A stretch of 64,000 nucleotides of DNA from Gammaproteobacteria bacterium HGW-Gammaproteobacteria-1 (GTDB lineage Bacteria > Pseudomonadota > Gammaproteobacteria > Thiohalomonadales > Thiohalomonadaceae), in NCBI GenBank assembly GCA_002840095.1, contig PGZL01000006.1, positions 77,241 to 141,240 of the forward strand, in the 5' to 3' direction. Below the pieces are notes generated by a model, which was given only the letters and a program-made list of their open reading frames with translations, was not told the DNA's origin and did no database searches. Below, one piece after another: positions 4,494 to 21,515 of the stretch (the first letter of the stretch is position 1; each line of letters opens with the position of its first letter). The position numbers and the translations under genes are program-made.

Positions 4494-6605
4494 TCAGCCG
4501 CGGCCGCGGCCGATCTTCACCACCTTGTCGAGGACGCGGATGCTGCGCATGATGCGGGCGAGATGGATGCGGTCGCGCACGGCGACGGTGAGGTTGATGG
4601 CGGAGTGGATGCCGTCGCGATCTTCCAGGCTGACGTTGTCGATGTTGGCGTCGGCGTCGGCGATGACCGCCGCCACCGTGGCGAGCACGCCGCGCTGGTT
4701 GGTGACTTCCACGCGCAGGTCCACCGGGAAGGTGGTGTCGAGCAGGTCGGCCCACTGCACGGTGATCCATTTCTCCGGCTGCTTGCGGTAATCGGCGATG
4801 TTCTTGCAGTGCTGGGTGTGGATGATGATGCCGCGGCCGGTGGAGAGAAAGCCCATGATGGCGTCGCCGGGGATCGGGCGGCAACACTTGGCGAAGGACA
4901 CCACGGCGCCCTCGGTGCCCTTGATGTAGAGCGGGCGGTTGGCCGCTTCCTGTTCCGGGGTCTGGGTTTCCTGCGGTACCAGCAGGCGCGCGGCGAGCGG
5001 CGCCATGCGGTTGCCCAGGCCGATCTGCTCCAGAAGATCGTCGAAGGTGGCGAGGTTCATTTCCTTGAGCGCGAATTCGACGCGCTCGTGGGACACCATC
5101 AGCAGGGTTTCCTCCAGGTCGGTCAGGGCCTGTTCCAGCAGGCGGCGGCCGAGACCGATGGCCTCGTCGCGCTGCAGGTTCTTGAGGTAGTTGCGGATGT
5201 TGGCGCGCGCCTTGGCGGTGACCACGAAGTTGAGCCAGGTGGGATTGGGACGCGCGCTCGGCGCGGTGATCACTTCCACGGTCTGGCCGTTGCCGAGGCG
5301 CGTGGCCAGCGGCATCAGGCGGCGATCGATTTTCACCGCCACGCAGGAGTTGCCCACGTCGGTGTGCACGTCGTAGGCGAAGTCCACGGCGGTGGCGCCG
5401 CGCGGCAGTTCCATGATCTCGCCCTTGGGCGTGAACACGTAGACCTCGTCGGGGAACAGGTCGACCTTGACGTTTTCCAGGAACTCCAGTGAGTTGCCCG
5501 CGCTCTGCTGCATCTCCAGCAGGTTGCGCAGCCATTCGCGTGCGCGCGCCTGGGCGCTGACGCCGCCGCCTTCGCCGGTCTTGTACAGCCAGTGGGCGGC
5601 GATGCCGGCCTCGGCTACCTTGTCCATCTCCTCGGTGCGGATCTGCACCTCGATGGGCACGCCGTAGGGGCCGAACAGGGCGGTGTGCAGCGACTGGTAG
5701 CCGTTGGCCTTGGGGATGGCGATGTAGTCCTTGAAGCGGCCCGGCACCGGCTTGTACAGGTTGTGCACGGCGCCGAGCACGCGGTAGCAGGTGTCCACCT
5801 TGTCGACGATGACGCGGAAGGCGTAGACGTCCATCACTTCGTTGAAGGGCAGGTGTTTGCTGCGCATCTTCTTGTACAGCGACAGCAGGTGCTTCTCGCG
5901 GCCGATGACGCGGCCTTCCAGCCCTTCCTGGCGCAGGCGTTCCTGCAGGGCGATTTCGATCTTGGTGATGATCTCGCGGCGGTTGCCGCGCGCCTTCTTC
6001 ACCGCCTCGGCCAGCACGCGGGCGCGCATCGGGTGGTAGGCGGCGAAACCCAGATCCTCCAGTTCCAGGCGCAGGCTGTTCATGCCGAGGCGGGAGGCGA
6101 TGGGGGTGTAGATGTCGAGGGTTTCGCGCGCGATGCGGCGGCGCTTGTCCGGGCGCATGGCTTCCAGCGTGCGCATGTTGTGCAGGCGGTCGGCCAGCTT
6201 GATGATGATGACGCGCAGGTCGCGCGCCATGGCCAGCATCATCTTGCGGAAGTTTTCCGCCTGGGCCTCGGCCTTGCTCTCGAACTGGATGTTGGTGAGC
6301 TTGGAGACGCCGTCCACCAGCTCGGCCACTTCGGCGCCGAATTTCTCGGCGATCTGTTCCTTGGCGGTGGGGGTGTCTTCGATGACGTCGTGCAGGATCG
6401 CGGCGACGAGGCTCGGGGCGTCCATGCGCATCTCGGCGAGGATGCGCGCCACGGCCAGGGGATGATAGATGTAGGGTTCGCCGGAGAGGCGCTTCTGTCC
6501 TTCGTGCGCCTCGGCGCCGAACAGGTAGGCCCGGTAGACTTCGGCTACCTGATCGGGTTCAAGATAGCCCTCGAGTATGGCGCACAGGTCGCTGATGAGA
6601 AACAC
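4494..6605 (-). CDS. spoT: Bifunctional (p)ppGpp synthetase/hydrolase
   Basis: 703 residues starting at GTG, with GGGGAG about 7 bases upstream. The N-terminal hydrolase has the HD pair in LHDVIED (His72, Asp73) and a second conserved block ADRLHNMRTL. The synthetase domain follows (RFKDYIAIPKANGYQSLHT), then a TGS domain (VYVFTPKGEI) and a C-terminal ACT domain. The intact HD motif and synthetase fit SpoT rather than hydrolase-dead RelA. It makes and degrades the stringent-response alarmone. It is last in the minus-strand run yicC, higBA, gmk, rpoZ, spoT, the usual gammaproteobacterial order apart from the toxin-antitoxin insertion. Confidence 0.97.
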   Translation of the reverse strand: MFLISDLCAILEGYLEPDQVAEVYRAYLFGAEAHEGQKRLSGEPYIYHPLAVARILAEMRMDAPSLVAAILHDVIEDTPTAKEQIAEKFGAEVAELVDGVSKLTNIQFESKAEAQAENFRKMMLAMARDLRVIIIKLADRLHNMRTLEAMRPDKRRRIARETLDIYTPIASRLGMNSLRLELEDLGFAAYHPMRARVLAEAVKKARGNRREIITKIEIALQERLRQEGLEGRVIGREKHLLSLYKKMRSKHLPFNEVMDVYAFRVIVDKVDTCYRVLGAVHNLYKPVPGRFKDYIAIPKANGYQSLHTALFGPYGVPIEVQIRTEEMDKVAEAGIAAHWLYKTGEGGGVSAQARAREWLRNLLEMQQSAGNSLEFLENVKVDLFPDEVYVFTPKGEIMELPRGATAVDFAYDVHTDVGNSCVAVKIDRRLMPLATRLGNGQTVEVITAPSARPNPTWLNFVVTAKARANIRNYLKNLQRDEAIGLGRRLLEQALTDLEETLLMVSHERVEFALKEMNLATFDDLLEQIGLGNRMAPLAARLLVPQETQTPEQEAANRPLYIKGTEGAVVSFAKCCRPIPGDAIMGFLSTGRGIIIHTQHCKNIADYRKQPEKWITVQWADLLDTTFPVDLRVEVTNQRGVLATVAAVIADADANIDNVSLEDRDGIHSAINLTVAVRDRIHLARIMRSIRVLDKVVKIGRGRG

Positions 6606-7615: not shown

Positions 7616-7906
7616 CTAGTGTTCTGCGTGGTTTGCGGCGGGATTATGCCGTGCCTGCCAGAGGTCATAATCCACCTGCTGGCCCAGCCACAATTCGGCG
7701 CGGCCGCCACGTTCCGGTCCCAGCCAGGCCTCGATGCGCAGTGCCATGTCCGTCGATATCGCGGCGTGGCCGTTCAATATGCGGGACAGTGCCGCCCGCG
7801 TCACGCCCAGCTGCCGTGCGGCTTCCGTCACCGACAGGCCGAGGGCGGGCAATACGTCATCACGCAGGGTTTCCCCCGGATGCGGTGGGTTGAACATCGC
7901 GTTCAT
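7616..7906 (-). CDS. higA: HigA-type antitoxin, XRE family
   Basis: 96 residues from the ATG preceded by GAGGA; the in-frame upstream extension overlaps higB and is not used. The N-terminal NPPHPGETLRDDVLPALGLS is typical of HigA, followed by a helix-turn-helix (TEAARQLGVTRAALSRILNG). HigA neutralises HigB and represses the operon by binding an upstream palindrome. It starts 10 bases after the higB stop; toxin-first order is standard for higBA. Confidence 0.92.
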   Translation of the reverse strand: MNAMFNPPHPGETLRDDVLPALGLSVTEAARQLGVTRAALSRILNGHAAISTDMALRIEAWLGPERGGRAELWLGQQVDYDLWQARHNPAANHAEH

Positions 7907-7916
7907 GGCCAGTTCC

Positions 7917-8195
7917 TCAGTGGTAATCCTGATAGTCCACCAATATGGCGTCTTCACCCTCGAACATGAAGGTAAGTCGCCAGTTGCCGCTGACCCACAC
8001 TGACCAATGGCCGGCCAGCTCATGGCTGAGGGGGTGCAGCTTCCAGCCCGGCAGGTTCATATCCTCTGCCGTCCGGGCGTGGTTCAGGCGCTCCAGTTGG
8101 CGAGCCAGTTTCGGCGCGTGGGCGGCCTGAATCCCCGCCTTTGAACCGGTGGTGAAGAACCGCTCAATCCCTTTGTGGCGGAAACTTCTGATCAT
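7917..8195 (-). CDS. higB: HigB-type mRNA interferase toxin
   Basis: 92 residues, the usual HigB length. MIRSFRHKGIERFF at the start and the tail GNWRLTFMFEGEDAILVDYQDYH are family hallmarks. HigB cleaves mRNA on the ribosome during stress. No Shine-Dalgarno sequence is visible. A -10-like TATACA ends about 8 bases before the ATG, so the transcript may be leaderless. The pair is inserted between yicC and gmk, which are normally adjacent. Confidence 0.92.
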   Translation of the reverse strand: MIRSFRHKGIERFFTTGSKAGIQAAHAPKLARQLERLNHARTAEDMNLPGWKLHPLSHELAGHWSVWVSGNWRLTFMFEGEDAILVDYQDYH

Positions 8196-8234: not shown

Positions 8235-9098
8235 CTATTCGATATTCTGCACCTGCTCGCGCATCTGCTCGATGAGGACCTTGAGGTCCACGGCGTAGCG
8301 GGTGGTGTCCACGTCCTGGGACTTGGAGGAGAGGGTGTTGGCCTCGCGGTTCAGCTCCTGCATCAGGAAGTCCAGGCGGCGGCCCACCGGTTCCTTCTGT
8401 TCCAGCACCCGGCGCACCTCGTCCAGGTGCGCGCCCAGACGGTCCAGTTCCTCTTCCACGTCCAGGCGCTGGGCCAGCAGCACCAGTTCCTGCTCCAGCC
8501 GGGCCTGGTCCAGTTCGCCCTTGAGCTCGGCCAGGCGGGCGTCGAGGCGCTCGCGCGCCCGGGCCAGGACGTCGGGCCGGCGGGCGTTCACTTGGCCGAC
8601 GATCTCCGTCATGGCGGCGCAGCGCTGGCTGATCAGTTCCTTGAGTTTGTCACCTTCGCGGCGGCGGGTTTCGATCAGCTCGCCCAGTGCGGCGTCGAGC
8701 AGGCCCATGGCCGCGGCGTGCACCTGTTCCGGTTCGGGGGTGGGCTGCTGCAGCACACCGGGCCAGCGCAGCACGTCGAAGGAGTTCACCGGGGCGGCGT
8801 TATAGATGATGCCGTCGATCTCGCGGGTGACATGGGCCAGCTGGGTCACCAGCTCGCGATTGATCTCCAGGGTGGCGTATTCCGCCGGCGCCTGGTAGCG
8901 GATGTTGCAGTCCACCTTGCCGCGGCCCAGGCCCTGGTTGAGCTTTTCGCGGATGCGCGGCTCCAGCAGGCGCACCTCTTCCGGCAGGCGCAGCGCCAGT
9001 TCCAGGTAGCGGTGATTGACCGAGCGCAGCTCGATGGTGAAGGTGCCCCAGTCACCCTGGGACTCGCGGCGGGCGAATGCCGTCATGCTGTGAATCAT
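8235..9098 (-). CDS. yicC: YicC-family endoribonuclease
   Basis: 287 residues from the ATG giving MIHSMTAFARRE, the family start, with GAGGAG upstream; a GTG two codons earlier is less likely. The C-terminal DUF1732 block (EANTLSSKSQD, VDLKVLIEQMREQVQNIE) is intact. YicC proteins are RNases; the E. coli member acts on the small RNA RyhB. The gene leads the minus-strand run toward gmk-rpoZ-spoT and diverges from the kinase gene across about 100 bases. Confidence 0.93.
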   Translation of the reverse strand: MIHSMTAFARRESQGDWGTFTIELRSVNHRYLELALRLPEEVRLLEPRIREKLNQGLGRGKVDCNIRYQAPAEYATLEINRELVTQLAHVTREIDGIIYNAAPVNSFDVLRWPGVLQQPTPEPEQVHAAAMGLLDAALGELIETRRREGDKLKELISQRCAAMTEIVGQVNARRPDVLARARERLDARLAELKGELDQARLEQELVLLAQRLDVEEELDRLGAHLDEVRRVLEQKEPVGRRLDFLMQELNREANTLSSKSQDVDTTRYAVDLKVLIEQMREQVQNIE

Positions 9099-9202
9099 GT
9101 ACACTCCTCAGGCTAACGATGCGGCATGGTGGGTCATGGTACCCCGACTGGCCGTGCCACGGAACAGCAGAGGAAAAAGGCTTTCTCTTCATACGGATAC
9201 GG

Positions 9203-10171
9203 ATGAACGACGCACGCGACAACTACTGCCTGCAGGCCGGCTCATCGCTGGACAGCTACGTCATCGACCGCGCCATCGGCGGCGGCGGCTTCAGCATCGT
9301 CTATCTGGCCCATGATGCCGTCGACGGCACCCAGGTGGCGATCAAGGAGTACATGCCGCGCAAGCTGGCCTTCCGCGGCGAGGACGGCGTGTCGGTGCAC
9401 ACCATGCCCGACTCCGAGACCGGCGACAATTTCGCCCACGGCCGCCGCATGTTCTTCCAGGAGGCCAGCACGCTGGCCACCGTCAAGCATCCCAACATCG
9501 TCAACGTGATCAACTTCTTCCGTGCCAACGGCACGGTGTACATGGTCATGGCCTACGAGAAGGGGATCAATCTGCAGGACTACATCCGGCGCCACGGCGG
9601 CAACCTGAGCGAGAAATTCATCCGCACCGTGTTCCCGCCGCTGCTGGACGGCCTCAAGGCCATCCACGGCATGGGCCTGCTGCATCTCGACATCAAGCCC
9701 GGCAACATCTTCCTGCGCCCCGGCGGCAATCCCATCCTGCTGGACTTCGGCGCGGTGCACCAGATGCAGAACAGCCGCAAGTACCAGCCGACCCAGGTGG
9801 TCACCCCCGGCTTCGCCCCCTATGAACAGCTGACGCCCGGTGGCTACGTCGGGCCGTGGAGCGACCTTTACGCCATCGGCGCCTCCATGCGCGCCTGCAT
9901 CGACGGCGCCACCCCGCCGCCGGCGGACGAGCGGCGCATGAAGGACGTCATGAAGCCGGCGGCGGTGGCGTTCAAGAAGCGCTATTCCAATGCCCTGCTC
10001 GGCGCCATCGACTGGGCCATGGAGGTGGATGCGCTGCTGCGGCCGCAGAGCGTGGATCAGCTGCTGGAAGCCATGAACCGCGAGGAGCCGCCGGAGGAAC
10101 CCATGTCGCGCGGCGACGCCTTCCTGGACCTGCTCACCCGCGACATCACCCTGCCCTGGTCCAAGGGGTGA
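9203..10171 (+). CDS. Hanks-type Ser/Thr protein kinase
   Basis: 322 residues consisting almost only of a kinase domain. The glycine loop is GGGGFSIVY (26-34), the ATP lysine Lys48 (VAIKEYMP), the helix-C Glu is likely Glu87, and the catalytic loop HLDIKPGN (161-168) is followed by DFG (181-183) and APYEQ (205-209). The HRD arginine is Leu, as in some bacterial kinases activated without the usual Arg contact. No transmembrane segment or sensor domain is visible, so it is probably cytoplasmic. It is translationally linked to a PP2C phosphatase 6 bases downstream, making a reversible phosphorylation pair. Targets are unknown. Confidence 0.9.
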   Translation: MNDARDNYCLQAGSSLDSYVIDRAIGGGGFSIVYLAHDAVDGTQVAIKEYMPRKLAFRGEDGVSVHTMPDSETGDNFAHGRRMFFQEASTLATVKHPNIVNVINFFRANGTVYMVMAYEKGINLQDYIRRHGGNLSEKFIRTVFPPLLDGLKAIHGMGLLHLDIKPGNIFLRPGGNPILLDFGAVHQMQNSRKYQPTQVVTPGFAPYEQLTPGGYVGPWSDLYAIGASMRACIDGATPPPADERRMKDVMKPAAVAFKKRYSNALLGAIDWAMEVDALLRPQSVDQLLEAMNREEPPEEPMSRGDAFLDLLTRDITLPWSKG

Positions 10172-10177
10172 TTGCGC

Positions 10178-11080
10178 ATGCTGTACGAAACCGGCGTCGC
10201 CAATCATCTGGGTAACCGCAACAGCAACCAGGATCGCTTCGATGTGGTGGAGAGCGACGAAGGCGTGCTGCTGGTGCTGGCCGACGGCATGGGCGGCCAT
10301 GCCGGCGGCGACGTGGCGGCGCAGGCGCTGGTGGACATCGCCCGCGACCGCTATCTCAACGGCACGCGCCCGGTGGCCCAGCCCGGCCGCTTCCTCACCG
10401 AAATCGTCCTCGCCACCCACGACGCCCTGGTGAGCTACGCCGCCGAGCAGAACCTGGGCAACATCCCCGGCACCACCGCCGTGCTGTGCCTGATCCAGCG
10501 CGGCCACATGGACTGGGCCCACGTCGGCGACTCGCGCCTGTACCTGTTCCGCGACGGCCTGCCGGTGTTCCGCACCACCGATCATTCCTATGTGGAGCAG
10601 CTGTACCGTCAGGGCATGATCAGCCGCTCCGAGCAGGACAGCCACCCGCGCCGCAATCACATCACCCAGTGCATCGGCGCCATGCCGCAGGCGCCCGAAG
10701 TGGAACTGGGCAAGGGCAAGGGGCTGCGGGTGGACGACATCGTGCTGCTCTGCTCCGATGGCCTGTGGGGCGCGCTGGACGACGCACAGCTGGGCCTGAT
10801 GCTGCAGCAGGAAGGCAGCCTGGACGAGGTGCTGGAGCGCATGGCCATGCGCGCCGAACAGATCAGCTATCCCCACAGCGACAACATCAGCGTGGTAGCC
10901 CTGCGCCTGACCTCGCTGGCACCGGTGGCTCCCAAGCCGAAGCCCAAGCCGGCGCCCGCGCCAAAGCCGGAACCGGCGCCCGAGCCGGAAACGCCCCATG
11001 TGGATGACGACAAGCTGAAAGACGCCATCGAGCAGATCGAACAGGCCCTGCGCACCTACAAGGACGAGCTGAAGCGCTGA
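10178..11080 (+). CDS. PP2C-type protein phosphatase
   Basis: 300 residues from the ATG with AAGGGG 9 bases upstream; a TTG directly after the kinase stop is the alternative. PP2C motifs are present: NQDR (17-20), DGMGGH (36-41), [12 protein letters not shown] and SDGLWG, supplying the Asp ligands of the two-metal site. After the domain comes a Pro/Ala/Lys/Glu-rich linker ([20 protein letters not shown]) and a short predicted helix ending in KDELKR. The linker could tether the enzyme to a partner. It should reverse the action of the kinase just upstream. Confidence 0.92.
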
Positions 11081-12764: not shown

Positions 12765-12983
12765 GTGAGCGATTGTGATGTTCTGCACCACTGTCCCGTC
12801 TGGGGTAACTTTCAATCCCATGTCAGGGCTGTCTGGATCAACAATTACTGCAAGGGGCCGCGGCGCGAACGCTGTGCACGCCTGCAGTTGATACGCGCCG
12901 GCCAGCCCGTCGCCGCCGATTTGCTGCCCAACGGCACCCGCATGCCGGTACGGCATACCGACGGCAACTCAGCCGCGGGTTGA
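12765..12983 (+). CDS. Small four-cysteine protein, unknown function
   Basis: 72 residues starting at GTG with AAGGAG 6 bases upstream. Cysteines at 4, 10, 29 and 37 (SDCDVLHHC, NNYCKG, RERCARLQL) look like a metal or redox site. The tail LLPNGTRMPVRH resembles uncharacterised small proteins seen beside signalling genes, as far as I recall; no function is known to me. Its 3' end overlaps the end of the convergent GGDEF-EAL gene by 15 bases, so the two transcripts are antisense at their ends. Confidence 0.6.
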   Translation: MSDCDVLHHCPVWGNFQSHVRAVWINNYCKGPRRERCARLQLIRAGQPVAADLLPNGTRMPVRHTDGNSAAG

Positions 12984-15900
12984 ACGCCGCCGCAGCCAGG
13001 CGGCGAGGTCCGCCGCCGGCAGCGGCCGGCTGAACAGGTAACCCTGCACCTCGTCGCAGCCCAGGCGGCGCAGTATGTCGAACTGGGCTTCGCTTTCGAC
13101 GCCTTCCGCAATTACCACCAGTCCCAGGCTGTGCCCCAGATTGACCACGCCGGAGGCAATGGCGCGATCATCGGCATCCTGCACCAAATCGCGCACGAAG
13201 GACTGATCCAGCTTGAGCTTGTGCAGCGGGAAGCGCTTCAGGTAGGCGAGGCTGGAATAGCCGGTGCCGAAGTCGTCCACCGCAATCTGCACGCCCAGCG
13301 TGCGGATGTGATTGAGCACGGCGAGGGTGTTCTCCATGTCCTGCGCCAGCAGGCTTTCAGTGATTTCCACTTCCAGATAACCCGCCTCCAGGCCGCTGCC
13401 GTCCAGCGCCTGCTGCACCAGCGTGCGGATGTCGCCCAGGGAGAACTGGCGGGCGGAGACGTTGACCGCCACCACCATGGGCGGCAGCCCCTCGTCCTGC
13501 CAGGCCTTGTTCTGGCGGCAGGCCTCGTGCAACACCCAGTCGCCGATCCGCCCGATCAGTCCGCTTTCCTCGGCAACAGGTATGAAGCGGGCGGGTGACA
13601 CCGCGCCGAGTTGCGGATGGGTCCAGCGCAGCAAGGCCTCGACGCCGATGACCTGGCCGCTGGCCAGATCGATCTGCGGCTGGTAGTGCAGGGTGAACTG
13701 ATCGTTGTCCAGCGCCCTGCGCAGGGCGTTTTCCAGCGTCAGCCGTTCCATCGCCGCGTTGTTCAGTTCCGGCGTGAAGAAATGGTAGCGGTTGCGGCCC
13801 AACTCCTTGGCCTTGTACATGGCAATGTCGGCGTTCTTGTGCAGTTCGTCGAAGTCGCGGCCGTCGGTGGGATAGAGCGCGATGCCGATACTGGCGGTGA
13901 CCGTGAGGGTGTGGCCGCCGGTGACGATGGGCTGGCTGATGCGGCTGATCAGGTTGTGCGCGACGAGCGCGGCACTGGCCGCGTTACTGCCGCTTAGCAC
14001 GATGAGAAATTCATCGCCGCCGAGGCGGCCCACGGTATCGGTGTGGCGCAGCGCGGCGTGGATGCGCTGGGTGACTTCCTGCAGCAGGGCATCGCCGCTG
14101 AGATGGCCCAGGGAGTCATTGATGGTCTTGAAATGATCGAGATCGAGAAACAGCAATGCCGCCTCGGCGCGCGCCCGTTCGGCCTGGTTCAGTGCCTGCT
14201 CGGCGCGGTCGCGCAGCAGGGTGCGGTTGGGCAGTTCGGTCAGCGGATCGTAGTAGGCGAGGTAGCGGATGCGATCCTCGGCCTGCTTGTATTCGGTGAT
14301 GTCGGTGGAAACGGATATGTAGCAGGAGACCTTGCCCTGGGCATCGTGCACCGCTGAGATGGAGGCCAGGGCCGGGTACAGCTCGCCGCTCTTGCGTCGG
14401 TTCCACAGCTCCCCCTGCCAGTACCCGGTCTCCGTGACGCTGCGCCACAACTCCTCATAAAACGGCTGTTCCTGGCGCCCGGACTTGATGGCGCGGATGT
14501 GTTGGCCGATCACTTCGTCGGCGCCGTAGCCGGTAACCTTGGTGAAGGCCCGGTTGACGCTGACGATATGCGCGTCGGCGTCGGTGATCACGATCAACTC
14601 GCGGCTGTTGTCGAATACCAGGGCGGCCATGCGCAGCTGCTCGTCGGCCTGTCTGCGCGCATGCACATGCCCGATCTGATCGGCCAGCATGGCAAGCAGG
14701 GTTTGTTCCTCCGGCAGGAAAATATCCGTACGCACGCTGGTCGAGGGCGTGCGGTAGCCGGCCTCGACCGTGCCGATGCGGCGGTCCTGCTGCATGATCG
14801 GCGCGCTGATGGATGTGCCGGACGGATCGCCGACAGATGTGTATTCGCTGCCCTCAAGCTCGATGCGCGCCCACGCCATATCCGGGTATTGCAGCGCCGG
14901 CGGAATGTGTGCAGCGATGTGCCGCAGCATTTCGTCCTCGGTCAGTTCGTGTCGTGCCATCACTTCCGACGCATCCAGCAGGCAACGCAATTCCTTGACC
15001 CGTTCGCGAAGTTCATGACTGCGCCTGGCCAGCGTTTCCTCGGCCTGCCGCCGCTGCTCCTCGCGCAGGAAATTGTCCAGGGCGAAGGAAATGTCGAGCG
15101 CCATTTCGTCGAGCAGCCGGACCAGATCGTCACTGAACAGGTTCTTCTCTCCGGCATACAGGTTCAGGGCGCCGACTACCTGTCCCTGCTGTCGCAGGGG
15201 GAAGGCGGCGGAGGCGAGAAAGCCGGCGGCGCGGGCCCGTTCGTGCCAGGCGACGGTCTGGGGGTTATTGAGAAAATCGTTGCACAGGTAATGATCGCCC
15301 TGTCGTATCGCGGTGGCGGTCGGGCCCTGCCCCTGCGGTACCGATGGATCCAGAGAGATGTGCAGATCGGCGAGGTAGGCCGCCGGCATGCCGTTGTCGG
15401 CCAAAGGCCGGATCAGTTGGGTTGCCGGATCCACAAAGCCTATCCACGCCCCCTTCAGTCCGCTGTTTTCCACGGCGATGGCGCATATGCGCGGCAGCAG
15501 CTCGGCCAGCGTGGCGCTGCGCACGATGGCGGTGTTGGTATGGCTCAGGGTGGCGTAAAAGGCACTGAGACGGCGGCTGCGCAACTCGGCCTGCTGCAGC
15601 TCGCGGTTGCGTTCCGTCAGTGACCGGGTGAGGCGGCTGAAGTGATGGGACAGGCGCGCGATCTCGTCACGACCGCCGATCTGCGGCAACTCGCCTTCGC
15701 CGCTGCGCCAGTGCTCGAGGGCGCCGGTAAGGTGCTCGATCCGCCGCACCAGGAAGAAGTGCAGATACAGCCAGAACATGCCGGCGATCAGGGCCGCGCC
15801 GGCAAAGGTGGCGGCGGCGTGTTGCACTGCCTCATGGCGCGCATCCGCATACAGTGCGCCGTGGTCGTAGCTGAATACCAGGACGCCGATTCGGTTGGCG

Positions 15901-16364
15901 CGCAGTTCGCCCGGCAGCAGCGGCAGGCGCAGCGGATAGACCGCGCGCAGTACCGTGCCGTCGGCGGTATAGGCGCTCTGGCCGGCCAGCGTGGCGCGGG
16001 CGGCATCCAGCATCGCCTTGCCGGGGGCGTCGGGCAGGTCGGCAAGCTGCCGCTGCCGCAGGCGGTAGTCGGTGCTGAGCAGGACGGTGTCGGATTCGTC
16101 CAGCAGCGCCGCCCAGCGCAGATTGGGCTGGGTGACCACGCTTTGCAGGGCGCGTCGTGCCGCTTCCCAGTCGTCGGCACTGAGGGCGTCGCGCAGCAGA
16201 ACGGACATCTGGCTACCGCTGTGTGCCGCCCGCTGGCTGAGCTGGTGGCGGATGTCCTGATCGGCTTGGCGCAGTTCCAGCAGATGGATCACCACCAGCA
16301 AAGGCAGGCTGCTGACCAGCAAGGCGAGAGGCAGGATGCGGCGCAGGGGATAGAGCCAGTTCAT
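12969..16364 (-). CDS. Membrane GGDEF-EAL receptor with HAMP, GAF and PAS domains
   Basis: 1131 residues. Order: transmembrane helix (about 10-28), extracytoplasmic region, second helix (about 187-207), HAMP linker, GAF domain (about 290-435), a weaker GAF-like segment, PAS domain (about 585-700), GGDEF and EAL. The active loop is intact GGDEF (782-786), and EAL is intact (EALLRW from 909; EITES, DDFGTGYSSLAYLKRF and IAEGVE follow). Both c-di-GMP synthesis and breakdown are therefore possible. The start overlaps the stop of the upstream substrate-binding lipoprotein by 4 bases (ATGA). That coupling suggests the lipoprotein supplies ligand information to the extracytoplasmic domain. Confidence 0.93.
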   Translation of the reverse strand: MNWLYPLRRILPLALLVSSLPLLVVIHLLELRQADQDIRHQLSQRAAHSGSQMSVLLRDALSADDWEAARRALQSVVTQPNLRWAALLDESDTVLLSTDYRLRQRQLADLPDAPGKAMLDAARATLAGQSAYTADGTVLRAVYPLRLPLLPGELRANRIGVLVFSYDHGALYADARHEAVQHAAATFAGAALIAGMFWLYLHFFLVRRIEHLTGALEHWRSGEGELPQIGGRDEIARLSHHFSRLTRSLTERNRELQQAELRSRRLSAFYATLSHTNTAIVRSATLAELLPRICAIAVENSGLKGAWIGFVDPATQLIRPLADNGMPAAYLADLHISLDPSVPQGQGPTATAIRQGDHYLCNDFLNNPQTVAWHERARAAGFLASAAFPLRQQGQVVGALNLYAGEKNLFSDDLVRLLDEMALDISFALDNFLREEQRRQAEETLARRSHELRERVKELRCLLDASEVMARHELTEDEMLRHIAAHIPPALQYPDMAWARIELEGSEYTSVGDPSGTSISAPIMQQDRRIGTVEAGYRTPSTSVRTDIFLPEEQTLLAMLADQIGHVHARRQADEQLRMAALVFDNSRELIVITDADAHIVSVNRAFTKVTGYGADEVIGQHIRAIKSGRQEQPFYEELWRSVTETGYWQGELWNRRKSGELYPALASISAVHDAQGKVSCYISVSTDITEYKQAEDRIRYLAYYDPLTELPNRTLLRDRAEQALNQAERARAEAALLFLDLDHFKTINDSLGHLSGDALLQEVTQRIHAALRHTDTVGRLGGDEFLIVLSGSNAASAALVAHNLISRISQPIVTGGHTLTVTASIGIALYPTDGRDFDELHKNADIAMYKAKELGRNRYHFFTPELNNAAMERLTLENALRRALDNDQFTLHYQPQIDLASGQVIGVEALLRWTHPQLGAVSPARFIPVAEESGLIGRIGDWVLHEACRQNKAWQDEGLPPMVVAVNVSARQFSLGDIRTLVQQALDGSGLEAGYLEVEITESLLAQDMENTLAVLNHIRTLGVQIAVDDFGTGYSSLAYLKRFPLHKLKLDQSFVRDLVQDADDRAIASGVVNLGHSLGLVVIAEGVESEAQFDILRRLGCDEVQGYLFSRPLPAADLAAWLRRRSTRG

Positions 16365-17323
16365 GGCTGCACCTCGCCCAGCAGGCCGGCGTCGAGCCGG
16401 AGTTCCGCTGCTGCCGGGCGTGACAGCAGGCCGGCGCCCAGCATGATCTCCTGCAGGCGTTCGAGAGTGGCGCGCAGGCCGGATGCGCCGTTGCCGAGCA
16501 GGGTGCGGTTGGCGCCGGCGTCGGTCAGTTCCAGCAGGCGCCAGGTGTCCAGTAGGTCTGCGGCATCGATATCCATGCGGCGGGCGAGGGCGGGCGCCGC
16601 TGCCGCCGGATCGCGTTGCAGATGTTCCAGGGCGCTGAAGTAGGCTGCGGTCAGGGTCCGGAGCCCGGCGGCGTGGCTGTGCCGCACATCCTCCCGCACC
16701 ACCAGCACATCGACGATTTCGCCCGGGATGTCCCGGCTGGAGAATATTTCGTGCGCGCCTGCGGCGAGCAGGCGGCTGCGTTGCGGATCGAAGGTGATCA
16801 CTGCGTCGATACGCCCGCCGCGATACGCAGCCTCATGTTCCTGCAAGGACAGATGAACCAGGGTGAGATCGTGGGCGGAGAGGCCGCCCCGTTCCAGCAG
16901 GCGGGTCAGCATATAGGCGCCGAGGGCGCCGGTTTCCACGCCCAGGCGGCGCCCGCGCAATTGTTGCGGCGTATCGATGCCGGTGCGGGCCAACACCACG
17001 TCGGCGCCGTTGGAGAGGGAGAAAACCAGTATGATACGCAGCGCCTGGCCGCTATCCGCGAGGTGAAGCGCCTCGTCCAGCGTGATCGCCGCGGCGTCGA
17101 TGGCGCGGTTGCGGAAGGCGCGCAACACGTCCTCGGTATTGTCGAAGTCCACCAGTTGGATGGGCTGCCCTTCGAATAATCCAAGGTCGCGGGCGTGGTA
17201 CAGCCCCAGGTAACCCGGCCAGGGGTTGCTGCCGATGCGCAGCGTCGGTGCCGGCGTACAGGCCGGCAAGGCGGCGAGCCCGATCAGCGCGGTGACGAGC
17301 AGTAGGATTGAGAACGTACGCAT
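16361..17323 (-). CDS. Substrate-binding lipoprotein, SsuA/NMT1-like
   Basis: 320 residues. Signal peptide with lipobox ALPAC (Cys22). The mature start LRIGSNPWPGYLGLYHARDL is typical of ABC-transporter binding proteins of the SsuA/TauA/NMT1 class, and DGVE-type hinge motifs appear (RRLGVETGALGAYMLTRLL). No ABC permease or ATPase is nearby. Instead the next gene, overlapping by ATGA, is a GGDEF-EAL receptor. I infer a periplasmic sensor feeding c-di-GMP signalling rather than an importer. The ligand is unknown; sulfonate, nitrate or pyrimidine-like molecules are typical of the class. Confidence 0.85.
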   Translation of the reverse strand: MRTFSILLLVTALIGLAALPACTPAPTLRIGSNPWPGYLGLYHARDLGLFEGQPIQLVDFDNTEDVLRAFRNRAIDAAAITLDEALHLADSGQALRIILVFSLSNGADVVLARTGIDTPQQLRGRRLGVETGALGAYMLTRLLERGGLSAHDLTLVHLSLQEHEAAYRGGRIDAVITFDPQRSRLLAAGAHEIFSSRDIPGEIVDVLVVREDVRHSHAAGLRTLTAAYFSALEHLQRDPAAAAPALARRMDIDAADLLDTWRLLELTDAGANRTLLGNGASGLRATLERLQEIMLGAGLLSRPAAAELRLDAGLLGEVQP

Positions 17324-19445: not shown

Positions 19446-20771
19446 CTACCATGCCGGTTGCAGACTGAGGCCGAAAGGTTTCGTTGGGCGTGCTTGCTGG
19501 CCGGGGATGGGCAGGCCGATGGAGACGCGGAACAGTACATACTCGCGGTGCGCCGCGTGCTGGGCGTGTATGCGATAGGCGTCGATGCTGTCGAAATTCG
19601 ACAGCAGCACCGCCACCACCTTGCGATCCAGTATGTTGCGGTGCGCCATGTCGGCGAGCTTGCTCCGCACCTCGGCCTTGCCCAGCGCCGCCCGGTAGGG
19701 CCGCGTTTCCAGCAGCGCGGTGAACACGTCGGCGGCGGCGATGATGCGCGCGCCGAGAGGAATGGTGAGTGCCGTGCAGCGGCCGGGGTAGCCGTTGCCG
19801 TCCAGTCGCTCATGGTGCATCGCCGCCCAGGTCCGGATCTCCTCCAGGCCCTGCAACGGTTCGAGTATCCGGTAGGTGTAATAGGCGTGCGATTTGATCA
19901 CGCGAAACTCGGCGCTGTTCAGGCCGGCATTCTTTTCCAGTATCTCGATGGGAATGGCCAGCTTGCCGACGTCGTGCAGATAACCGGCTACCTTCACCTT
20001 CTGGCATTCCGTTTCGGAAAAACCCATGAGGTTCGCCAGTACCGATGCCGCGGTGGCCACGCCGCTGGAGTGGGTGGCGGTGAAGTGGCAGCGAAAGTCG
20101 ATGACGTGAGCCAGCAGCTCGGCGAAATCGAGCAGGTCGTCGTTGTCGAGTTCCACCGAATAATTGCGGCAGTTGGATACCAGTATCTGTTCCAGTGTGG
20201 GCGACATGACGTCGAGCCAGAAGCTCTCACGCCAGGCCAGTTCGGTAAAGGCATCGACCTGGTCGGGATCGAATTTGCTGCCGGAGTTGCGTGCCACGGC
20301 TGCGACGATGCGGTCCACCTGTTCCAGGATCGGCTGATCCTTGTCGATCAGCACGTCGATACGGTCCGCCAGGAACAGCAGCACGGACTCCATGGGGACC
20401 GGGGGTTCCATGCCGCAACGGTGATGATGCTCCGTATGGTGATGGCGGATGATGGTCGATACGTCGGAGAAATAGCGGAACTTGTTCAGCAGCTGGTAGC
20501 TGGCTTCACAGTGGCGGTTGTTGTCGGAGGAGTCATCGAATTCCAGCAGGTGATTGCGCTCGTGCAAAGAGAGCACGCCGATGTCATGCAGCAGGCCGGC
20601 AATGACCAGGTCGTATTGCGTCTTCTGCGGCGCCCCCAGCTCGCGCGCGATTTGATTGGCGATATAGGCGACCCGCTTGTGGTGGTTGGCGATGCGGGCG
20701 TCGATGTGATCGATGGCGCTGGCGATGGAGACCACAAAGTCCAGAAGATTGACGGGCCTGGGTATGAACAT
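19446..20771 (-). CDS. Tandem HD / HD-GYP domain protein
   Basis: 441 residues from the ATG with AGGGAG 7 bases upstream. The first half has an HD domain (NHHKRVAYIANQI, AGLLHDIGVL, HHHTEHHH). The second half is the HD-GYP part: AGYLHDVGKLAIP, then HHERLDGNGYPG and ETRPYRAAL, the motif of c-di-GMP phosphodiesterases. No transmembrane segment. Two HD modules in one protein suggest one catalytic and one sensory or regulatory. The gene diverges from a bacteriohemerythrin gene with an FNR box between them, linking c-di-GMP turnover to oxygen. Confidence 0.88.
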   Translation of the reverse strand: MFIPRPVNLLDFVVSIASAIDHIDARIANHHKRVAYIANQIARELGAPQKTQYDLVIAGLLHDIGVLSLHERNHLLEFDDSSDNNRHCEASYQLLNKFRYFSDVSTIIRHHHTEHHHRCGMEPPVPMESVLLFLADRIDVLIDKDQPILEQVDRIVAAVARNSGSKFDPDQVDAFTELAWRESFWLDVMSPTLEQILVSNCRNYSVELDNDDLLDFAELLAHVIDFRCHFTATHSSGVATAASVLANLMGFSETECQKVKVAGYLHDVGKLAIPIEILEKNAGLNSAEFRVIKSHAYYTYRILEPLQGLEEIRTWAAMHHERLDGNGYPGRCTALTIPLGARIIAAADVFTALLETRPYRAALGKAEVRSKLADMAHRNILDRKVVAVLLSNFDSIDAYRIHAQHAAHREYVLFRVSIGLPIPGQQARPTKPFGLSLQPAW

Positions 20772-20909
20772 GCAACAACTCCCTGTCATAGTGCCGCCAT
20801 GACCTCTTCTTGCCGGGCACGAAATGCGCCCGCGGCGGCCTGCCGACGATACGGATTTGGCTTATGCGGATTTAGCGCGGCATATTGGACTTGGTATAAC
20901 TCCAGCTCC

Positions 20910-20923
20910 TTGATCCGTATCAA
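20910..20923. promoter_or_regulatory. Perfect FNR/ANR box between HD-GYP and hemerythrin genes
   Basis: TTGATCCGTATCAA matches the FNR/ANR consensus TTGAT-N4-ATCAA exactly; the arms extend to CTCCTTGAT / ATCAAGGAG. Its centre (20916.5) lies about 145 bases from both start codons. On the plus strand TAAATC at 20945-20950 falls where a -10 would be for activation from -41.5, favouring the hemerythrin gene as target. Control of the HD-GYP gene is also possible. Confidence 0.7.
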
Positions 20924-21062
20924 GGAGGGGCCGGGGGCGGGCGGTAAATCATCGCTGCAGGCCGAAGGCGCGGCCGAAGGGTGGTCCATGGCGCCGGAAT
21001 TTGCGATATAACGATATTCCCGCCCGCGAGCGGCCGGCCAGAGACTATTCAAGGAGTACGGA

Positions 21063-21515
21063 ATGTCTTACTTCACCTGGGATTCCAGTCTCGAAACCGG
21101 GATCGAGGCCATCGACGTCCAGCACCGCCAAATCGTCGATTACATCAACCGGCTGCACGATGCCATTGCCGAAAACGACCGGGCGTCCGTGCGGGAGGTA
21201 CTCGACCAGGTGGTCGACTATACCCTGACGCATTTCGCCTTCGAGGAGCAGATGATAGCGCGGGCGGGATACCGCCACCTTGCATCCCACACGGAAGTGC
21301 ATCGGGTGTTTGCCGAGCGGGTAAGGCAATACCAGGCACGGATGGAGCAGGGCGAGGACGTGAGCAAGAAGCTGCTGTCCGATCTGCGCATCTGGCTGAC
21401 CAATCACATCAAGAACGAGGACCGCGACTATTCGGCCGTGGTCAAGGCCCATCTCCAGAGCGGCGAGGACCAGGGGTGGCTGTCCAGGACTCTGGGCCGG
21501 ATGTTTCCGCGTTAG
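21063..21515 (+). CDS. Bacteriohemerythrin
   Basis: 150 residues, single domain. Metal-ligand pattern is complete by eye: AIDVQHRQIVDYINRLHDAI (His21), THFAFEEQMI, the HTEVH pair and WLTNHIKNEDRDY. The protein binds O2 at a di-iron site and is used for oxygen storage, delivery or sensing. AAGGAGT precedes the ATG. An upstream FNR box suggests expression under low oxygen. It runs toward the minus-strand RlmN-like gene. Confidence 0.95.
   Translation: MSYFTWDSSLETGIEAIDVQHRQIVDYINRLHDAIAENDRASVREVLDQVVDYTLTHFAFEEQMIARAGYRHLASHTEVHRVFAERVRQYQARMEQGEDVSKKLLSDLRIWLTNHIKNEDRDYSAVVKAHLQSGEDQGWLSRTLGRMFPR

Follow-up and report, generated by a model that had tools for sequence, protein, structure and literature searches.

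The window, the whole 64,000-nucleotide stretch of DNA that we analyzed, carries on its minus strand two overlapping genes, the first for a solute-binding lipoprotein of 320 amino acids (positions 16361..17323) and the second for a membrane receptor of 1131 amino acids (12969..16364). The stop codon of the lipoprotein gene shares bases with the receptor start codon in the sequence ATGA (16361..16364), and an SD-like GAGGTG lies inside the lipoprotein gene, a few nucleotides 5' of the receptor ATG. By inspection of the sequence, the pair is flanked by a divergent hemW upstream and by rdgB/HAM1-like and rph-like genes past the receptor, and no transporter gene was seen in this neighborhood. An HD-GYP-like gene (20789..19446, minus strand) and a bacteriohemerythrin-like gene (21063-21515) were recognized in the same way near the receptor, and the stretch from 19446 to 21515 could possibly form a c-di-GMP neighborhood with it. 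Elsewhere in the window, again by inspection of the sequence, we noted a HigB/HigA-like toxin-antitoxin pair (7616-8195, minus strand) and a gene for a Ser/Thr protein kinase with a PP2C-like phosphatase gene after it (9077-11080).

The lipoprotein has an L-P-A-C lipobox at residues 19-22 and exceeds the Pfam gathering scores for both NMT1_2 (E = 1.9e-17; 64.4 bits, cut-off 24.7) and NMT1 (E = 2.7e-11; 44.2 bits, cut-off 20.5), which places it in the NMT1/SsuA-like superfamily of solute-binding proteins (SBPs). It falls below the curated NCBIfam cut-offs for SsuA_fam (92.2 versus 163.5 bits) and TIGR03427 (95.8 versus 333.9 bits), and its match to ABC_peri_uca is also subthreshold. At the thresholds used, all of its Pfam and NCBIfam matches were of NMT1/SsuA types, and the spermidine/putrescine SBP family was absent from them. 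The importer SBPs of TIGR03427 and SsuA_fam belong to the same superfamily and have the W-P-G and S-x-G-x-D motifs in common with the lipoprotein, but they are soluble, encoded beside permease and ATPase genes, and lie outside the tree group of receptor-linked SBPs. Positions conserved in both the window SBP and importer SBPs include the S-x-G-x-D motif (S104, D108), W35, and G37, as would be expected if solute binding had been retained. The predicted structure of the lipoprotein was poor (pLDDT, 48.5). A ligand guess drawn from importer cousins, which appeared by sequence inspection to be linked to urea carboxylase or creatininase genes, was dropped as too weak.

The receptor consists of a first transmembrane (TM) helix, a periplasmic domain, a second TM helix, and a HAMP-like region, followed by GAF_2/GAF (residues 284-430), PAS (583-692), GGDEF (703-859; positions 13788..14258, minus strand), and EAL (879-1114; 13023..13730, minus strand) domains. 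The GGDEF motif, at residue 773, and the RxxD I-site are intact, and the EAL-family catalytic motifs EALLR, N, E(ITES), DDF, K(LDQ), and E(GVE) are all present. Based on the I-site and both sets of catalytic motifs, a bifunctional cyclase/phosphodiesterase is plausible. The initial annotation had described the locus as an SsuA/NMT1-like binding lipoprotein whose stop overlaps the start of a membrane c-di-GMP enzyme with GAF and PAS domains and intact cyclase and phosphodiesterase motifs; the lipobox and Pfam scores, the ATGA overlap, the two TM helices and four Pfam domains, and the motifs themselves bear out this description.

The periplasmic sensor domain comprises ∼155 residues between the two TM helices (residues ∼30 to 188; positions 15800..16275, minus strand). 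Scanned alone, it matched no Pfam family at an E value of ≤0.01, and a set of 43 sensors had no Pfam family in common apart from HAMP, which was matched in 37 of the 43. An AlphaFold2 model built from the window, L004, and L005 sequences (pLDDT, 71.5; pTM, 0.54) has a single-Cache-like fold, in which a PAS-like alpha/beta fold follows a long N-terminal helix, and we conclude from this model that the sensor is a Cache-like domain. Matches to solved Cache structures had Z scores of 10 to 14. Among the nearest was the extracellular Cache domain of WalK (Z = 13.6; rmsd, 3.3; 133 aligned residues), although identity is 8% and WalK is a Gram-positive kinase. WalK also works with accessory proteins; we know of no SBP partner for it. 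Membership of the CHASE8 family was rejected, given a score for the window receptor of 16.8 bits that is below the 27-bit cut-off, and only 1 of the 43 sensors matched CHASE8 at an E value of ≤0.01.

We searched for the SBP in 20 genomes of the order, 369 of the class, and 398 of the phylum and read the surroundings of the order and class matches plus 20 new phylum matches. In the class, 54 of the 369 genomes contained matches at an E value of ≤1e-25, and some of these matches belong to importers. The close-relative set (E ≤ 1e-38, own genome excluded) contained 66 loci, in 61 of which a two-TM receptor lies directly downstream of the SBP, spanning 56 genomes, 35 families, and more than one class. 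Thus, the two-gene order, whose lack of conservation would have counted against the initial reading, is widely conserved. The receptor start falls between -20 and +30 nucleotides from the SBP stop in 59 of the 61 pairs; the genes overlap in 38, with the exact 4-nucleotide ATGA offset in 32. The window's own 4.2-Mb genome encodes ∼69 GGDEF and ∼45 HATPase proteins, roughly 3% of its genes if ∼1 gene per kb is assumed, and pairing in 61 of 66 loci is therefore far beyond chance. The five loci lacking an intact downstream receptor had an ABC-2 exporter (L027), apparent remnants (L038 and L060), or nothing recognized (L063 and L111) in its place.

We consider it very improbable that the two genes are adjacent only through hitch-hiking, with no functional consequence. 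In a genome of the same genus (G016), one partner has indeed been lost: the SBP gene is missing and the receptor is kept beside hemW (L024; G016:C147, ∼6468-6599), so the partner is not indispensable there, and that receptor may act alone or with another partner. However, such loss is rare, and the pair is kept in 35 families with varied flanking genes and despite exchanges of the output domains. Proximity of an SBP gene to a kinase gene does not guarantee that their products cooperate, as illustrated by two Pseudomonas aeruginosa kinases that were not activated by SBPs encoded nearby (PMC11113362).

SsuA/NMT1 proteins are classically importer SBPs, and the window's genome holds a related importer (G000:C24), so the lipoprotein might serve an ABC importer encoded elsewhere and merely be cotranscribed with an unrelated receptor, giving joint regulation of uptake and lifestyle. 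We rejected the identification of the window protein as an ABC-importer SBP because no importer adjoins its gene or that of any of the 66 close relatives. The importer in the window's genome is served by a separate soluble SBP, which is only 25% identical to the lipoprotein, and the dedicated transporter that would have counted against the initial reading was thus not found at these loci. Among the 22 weaker SBP matches (E values from 1e-38 to 1e-25), 11 were encoded with receptors and 8 with importers. In a tree of 83 SBPs, the receptor-linked proteins form one group (SH-aLRT, 99) and the importer-linked proteins lie outside it. A lone sequence not linked to a receptor, L080, stands beside the receptor-linked clade at a position that is not settled in the tree; it and a second relative, L083, adjoin a fatty-acid desaturase gene rather than a permease gene. 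A strict lipobox is present in at least 63 of 72 receptor-linked SBPs, with an uncleaved N-terminal helix in several others, whereas 11 of 12 importer- or desaturase-linked SBPs lack a lipobox, indicating that tethering goes with receptor linkage. Taken together, the tree and the separation of lipoproteins from soluble importer SBPs leave a role in uptake improbable.

The residue at position +2 after the lipidated cysteine is Asp in only 3 of the 63 lipobox SBPs, which by the Escherichia coli Lol rule favors outer-membrane sorting, and these residues suggest that the proteins are outer-membrane lipoproteins. The TM-anchored versions suggest an inner-membrane location. If the lipoprotein is indeed in the outer membrane, docking would have to reach across the periplasm. 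This placement is one of several resemblances to YfiBNR and the CHASE8 cyclases, in which a two-TM c-di-GMP enzyme has a Cache-clan periplasmic domain and a periplasmic controlling protein, and YfiB is an outer-membrane lipoprotein. By analogy with the action of YfiR on YfiN, and given the weak CHASE8 match, the lipoprotein could repress the receptor from the periplasm independently of any ligand and be released by an envelope signal rather than by a solute. We regard this as an unlikely explanation, since the window protein is a full-length SBP that keeps the same motif residues as importer SBPs. YfiR, by comparison, is not an SBP, and the window sensor scores below the CHASE8 cut-off.

Pfam scans of 54 receptors identified GGDEF domains in 33, EAL in 23, HisKA/HATPase in 19, and HAMP in 39; ten more, taken from the wider draw, were all kinases. 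The SBP-receptor module feeds histidine kinases and c-di-GMP enzymes with about equal frequency, a wider role than initially pictured. The SBP tree implies at least 14 switches of output between c-di-GMP enzyme and histidine kinase, 7 of which are forced by well-supported branches; some of the output labels used come from motif patterns and not from Pfam scans. Most receptors carry a short Cache-like sensor, and a PhnD-like (PF12974) periplasmic domain occurs in 8 of the 54 and in at least 2 more from the wider draw. In L056, L065, L075, L110, and L112, a lipoprotein of the same group is paired with a receptor containing the PhnD-like domain, giving two SBP folds per sensor. At four loci (L049, L051, L071, and L072), an EAL-domain gene lies shortly 3' of a kinase-type receptor, on the same strand in all four, and kinase versions may thus feed into c-di-GMP as well. 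The window's own genome also encodes a natural SBP-cyclase fusion, a single protein with NMT1, SBP_bac_3, and GGDEF domains (L033; G000:C8, 2224-4620).

The SBP and sensor stay together as outputs are exchanged. Where sister SBPs are paired with receptors of different output, the sensors are homologous, as in L043 (GGDEF) and L105 (kinase), whose sensors are 40% identical (E = 4e-45), and likewise in L026 and L102 (28%; E = 8e-32) and L040 and L098 (24%; E = 8e-15). SBP and sensor distances were correlated over 57 pairs (r = 0.70; P ≤ 0.0005) and in the nonredundant set (r = 0.56; P ≤ 0.0005), and the correlation held when only kinases were compared against c-di-GMP receptors (r = 0.53; P ≤ 0.0005). 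Given the GGDEF domain, the partial correlation was 0.30 (P = 0.0015). When c-di-GMP receptors were ranked by sensor similarity to each of 30 kinase receptors, the one whose SBP was nearest had a median rank of 2.5 of 27. Such coevolution regardless of output supports docking, which predicts correlated distances; shared ancestry contributes to these values, and because linked genes share a history, they are no proof of contact.

Several SBPs are co-receptors of membrane kinases, including LuxP with LuxQ and TorT with TorS, and these systems use SBP families and sensor domains other than those of the window pair. The closest known parallel is NspS-MbaA of Vibrio cholerae and Sinorhizobium meliloti, where an SBP gene also overlaps the gene for a membrane GGDEF-EAL receptor (PMC9993111), as we found for the genes in the window. 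In that system, docking of the SBP on the receptor sets the balance between cyclase and phosphodiesterase activities, with norspermidine-bound NspS favoring the cyclase (PMC8967002, PMC9993111). This is a tested precedent for the mechanism, and we propose that the window pair acts alike. NspS is PotD-like and binds polyamines, whereas the window SBP is an NMT1/SsuA-like lipoprotein, and we rejected membership of the NspS-MbaA system because the SBP comes from another family. Also unlike NspS-MbaA, the output of window-type receptors includes histidine kinases. NspS-MbaA has been reported in <1.4% of proteobacterial genomes (PMC9993111); for comparison, matches to the window SBP at an E value of ≤1e-25, importers included, were present in 54 of 369 class genomes. 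In our best reading, the window pair would be an NspS-MbaA-like two-part sensor that uses an SBP of another family and is more widespread.

Based on these comparisons, the locus is real and probably encodes a functional sensor pair, and we think it very likely that this is a two-part envelope sensor in which the lipoprotein docks on the receptor and steers c-di-GMP. The two-part interpretation of the initial annotation is thus strongly supported, and "nutrient" as the ligand is a guess. In the proposed mechanism, an SBP that quit transport and became membrane tethered would capture a periplasmic small molecule and dock on the receptor encoded immediately downstream, at its Cache-like periplasmic domain. 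Formation or loss of this contact would be passed via the second TM helix and HAMP to the GAF-PAS-GGDEF-EAL region and alter the balance of c-di-GMP synthesis versus breakdown, and translational coupling would hold the SBP and receptor in proportion. Here, we infer the docking, the control by ligand, and the direction of the switch.

According to a 2022 review, work on c-di-GMP networks had addressed only one, SBP_bac_3, of the 27 periplasmic-binding clan families (PMC8846402). We found no published account of an NMT1-like SBP paired with a receptor in a literature search that covered few subscription papers. The principle of an SBP acting on a receptor is already known from NspS-MbaA, and the new points are the wider distribution and the output swapping. 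More broadly, the pair is likely one instance of a widespread, so far unnamed proteobacterial co-receptor module, in which a dedicated group of NMT1-like lipoproteins that left transport is combined with a Cache-like sensor family lacking prior description, or with PhnD-like domains, and with interchangeable c-di-GMP enzyme or histidine kinase outputs. Such a module, recurring with exchanged outputs, would provide many natural pairs for testing how SBPs control c-di-GMP enzymes and kinases, and its easily purified SBPs would offer a route to the ligands of many orphan receptors. The module would also be a supply of interchangeable sensor parts.
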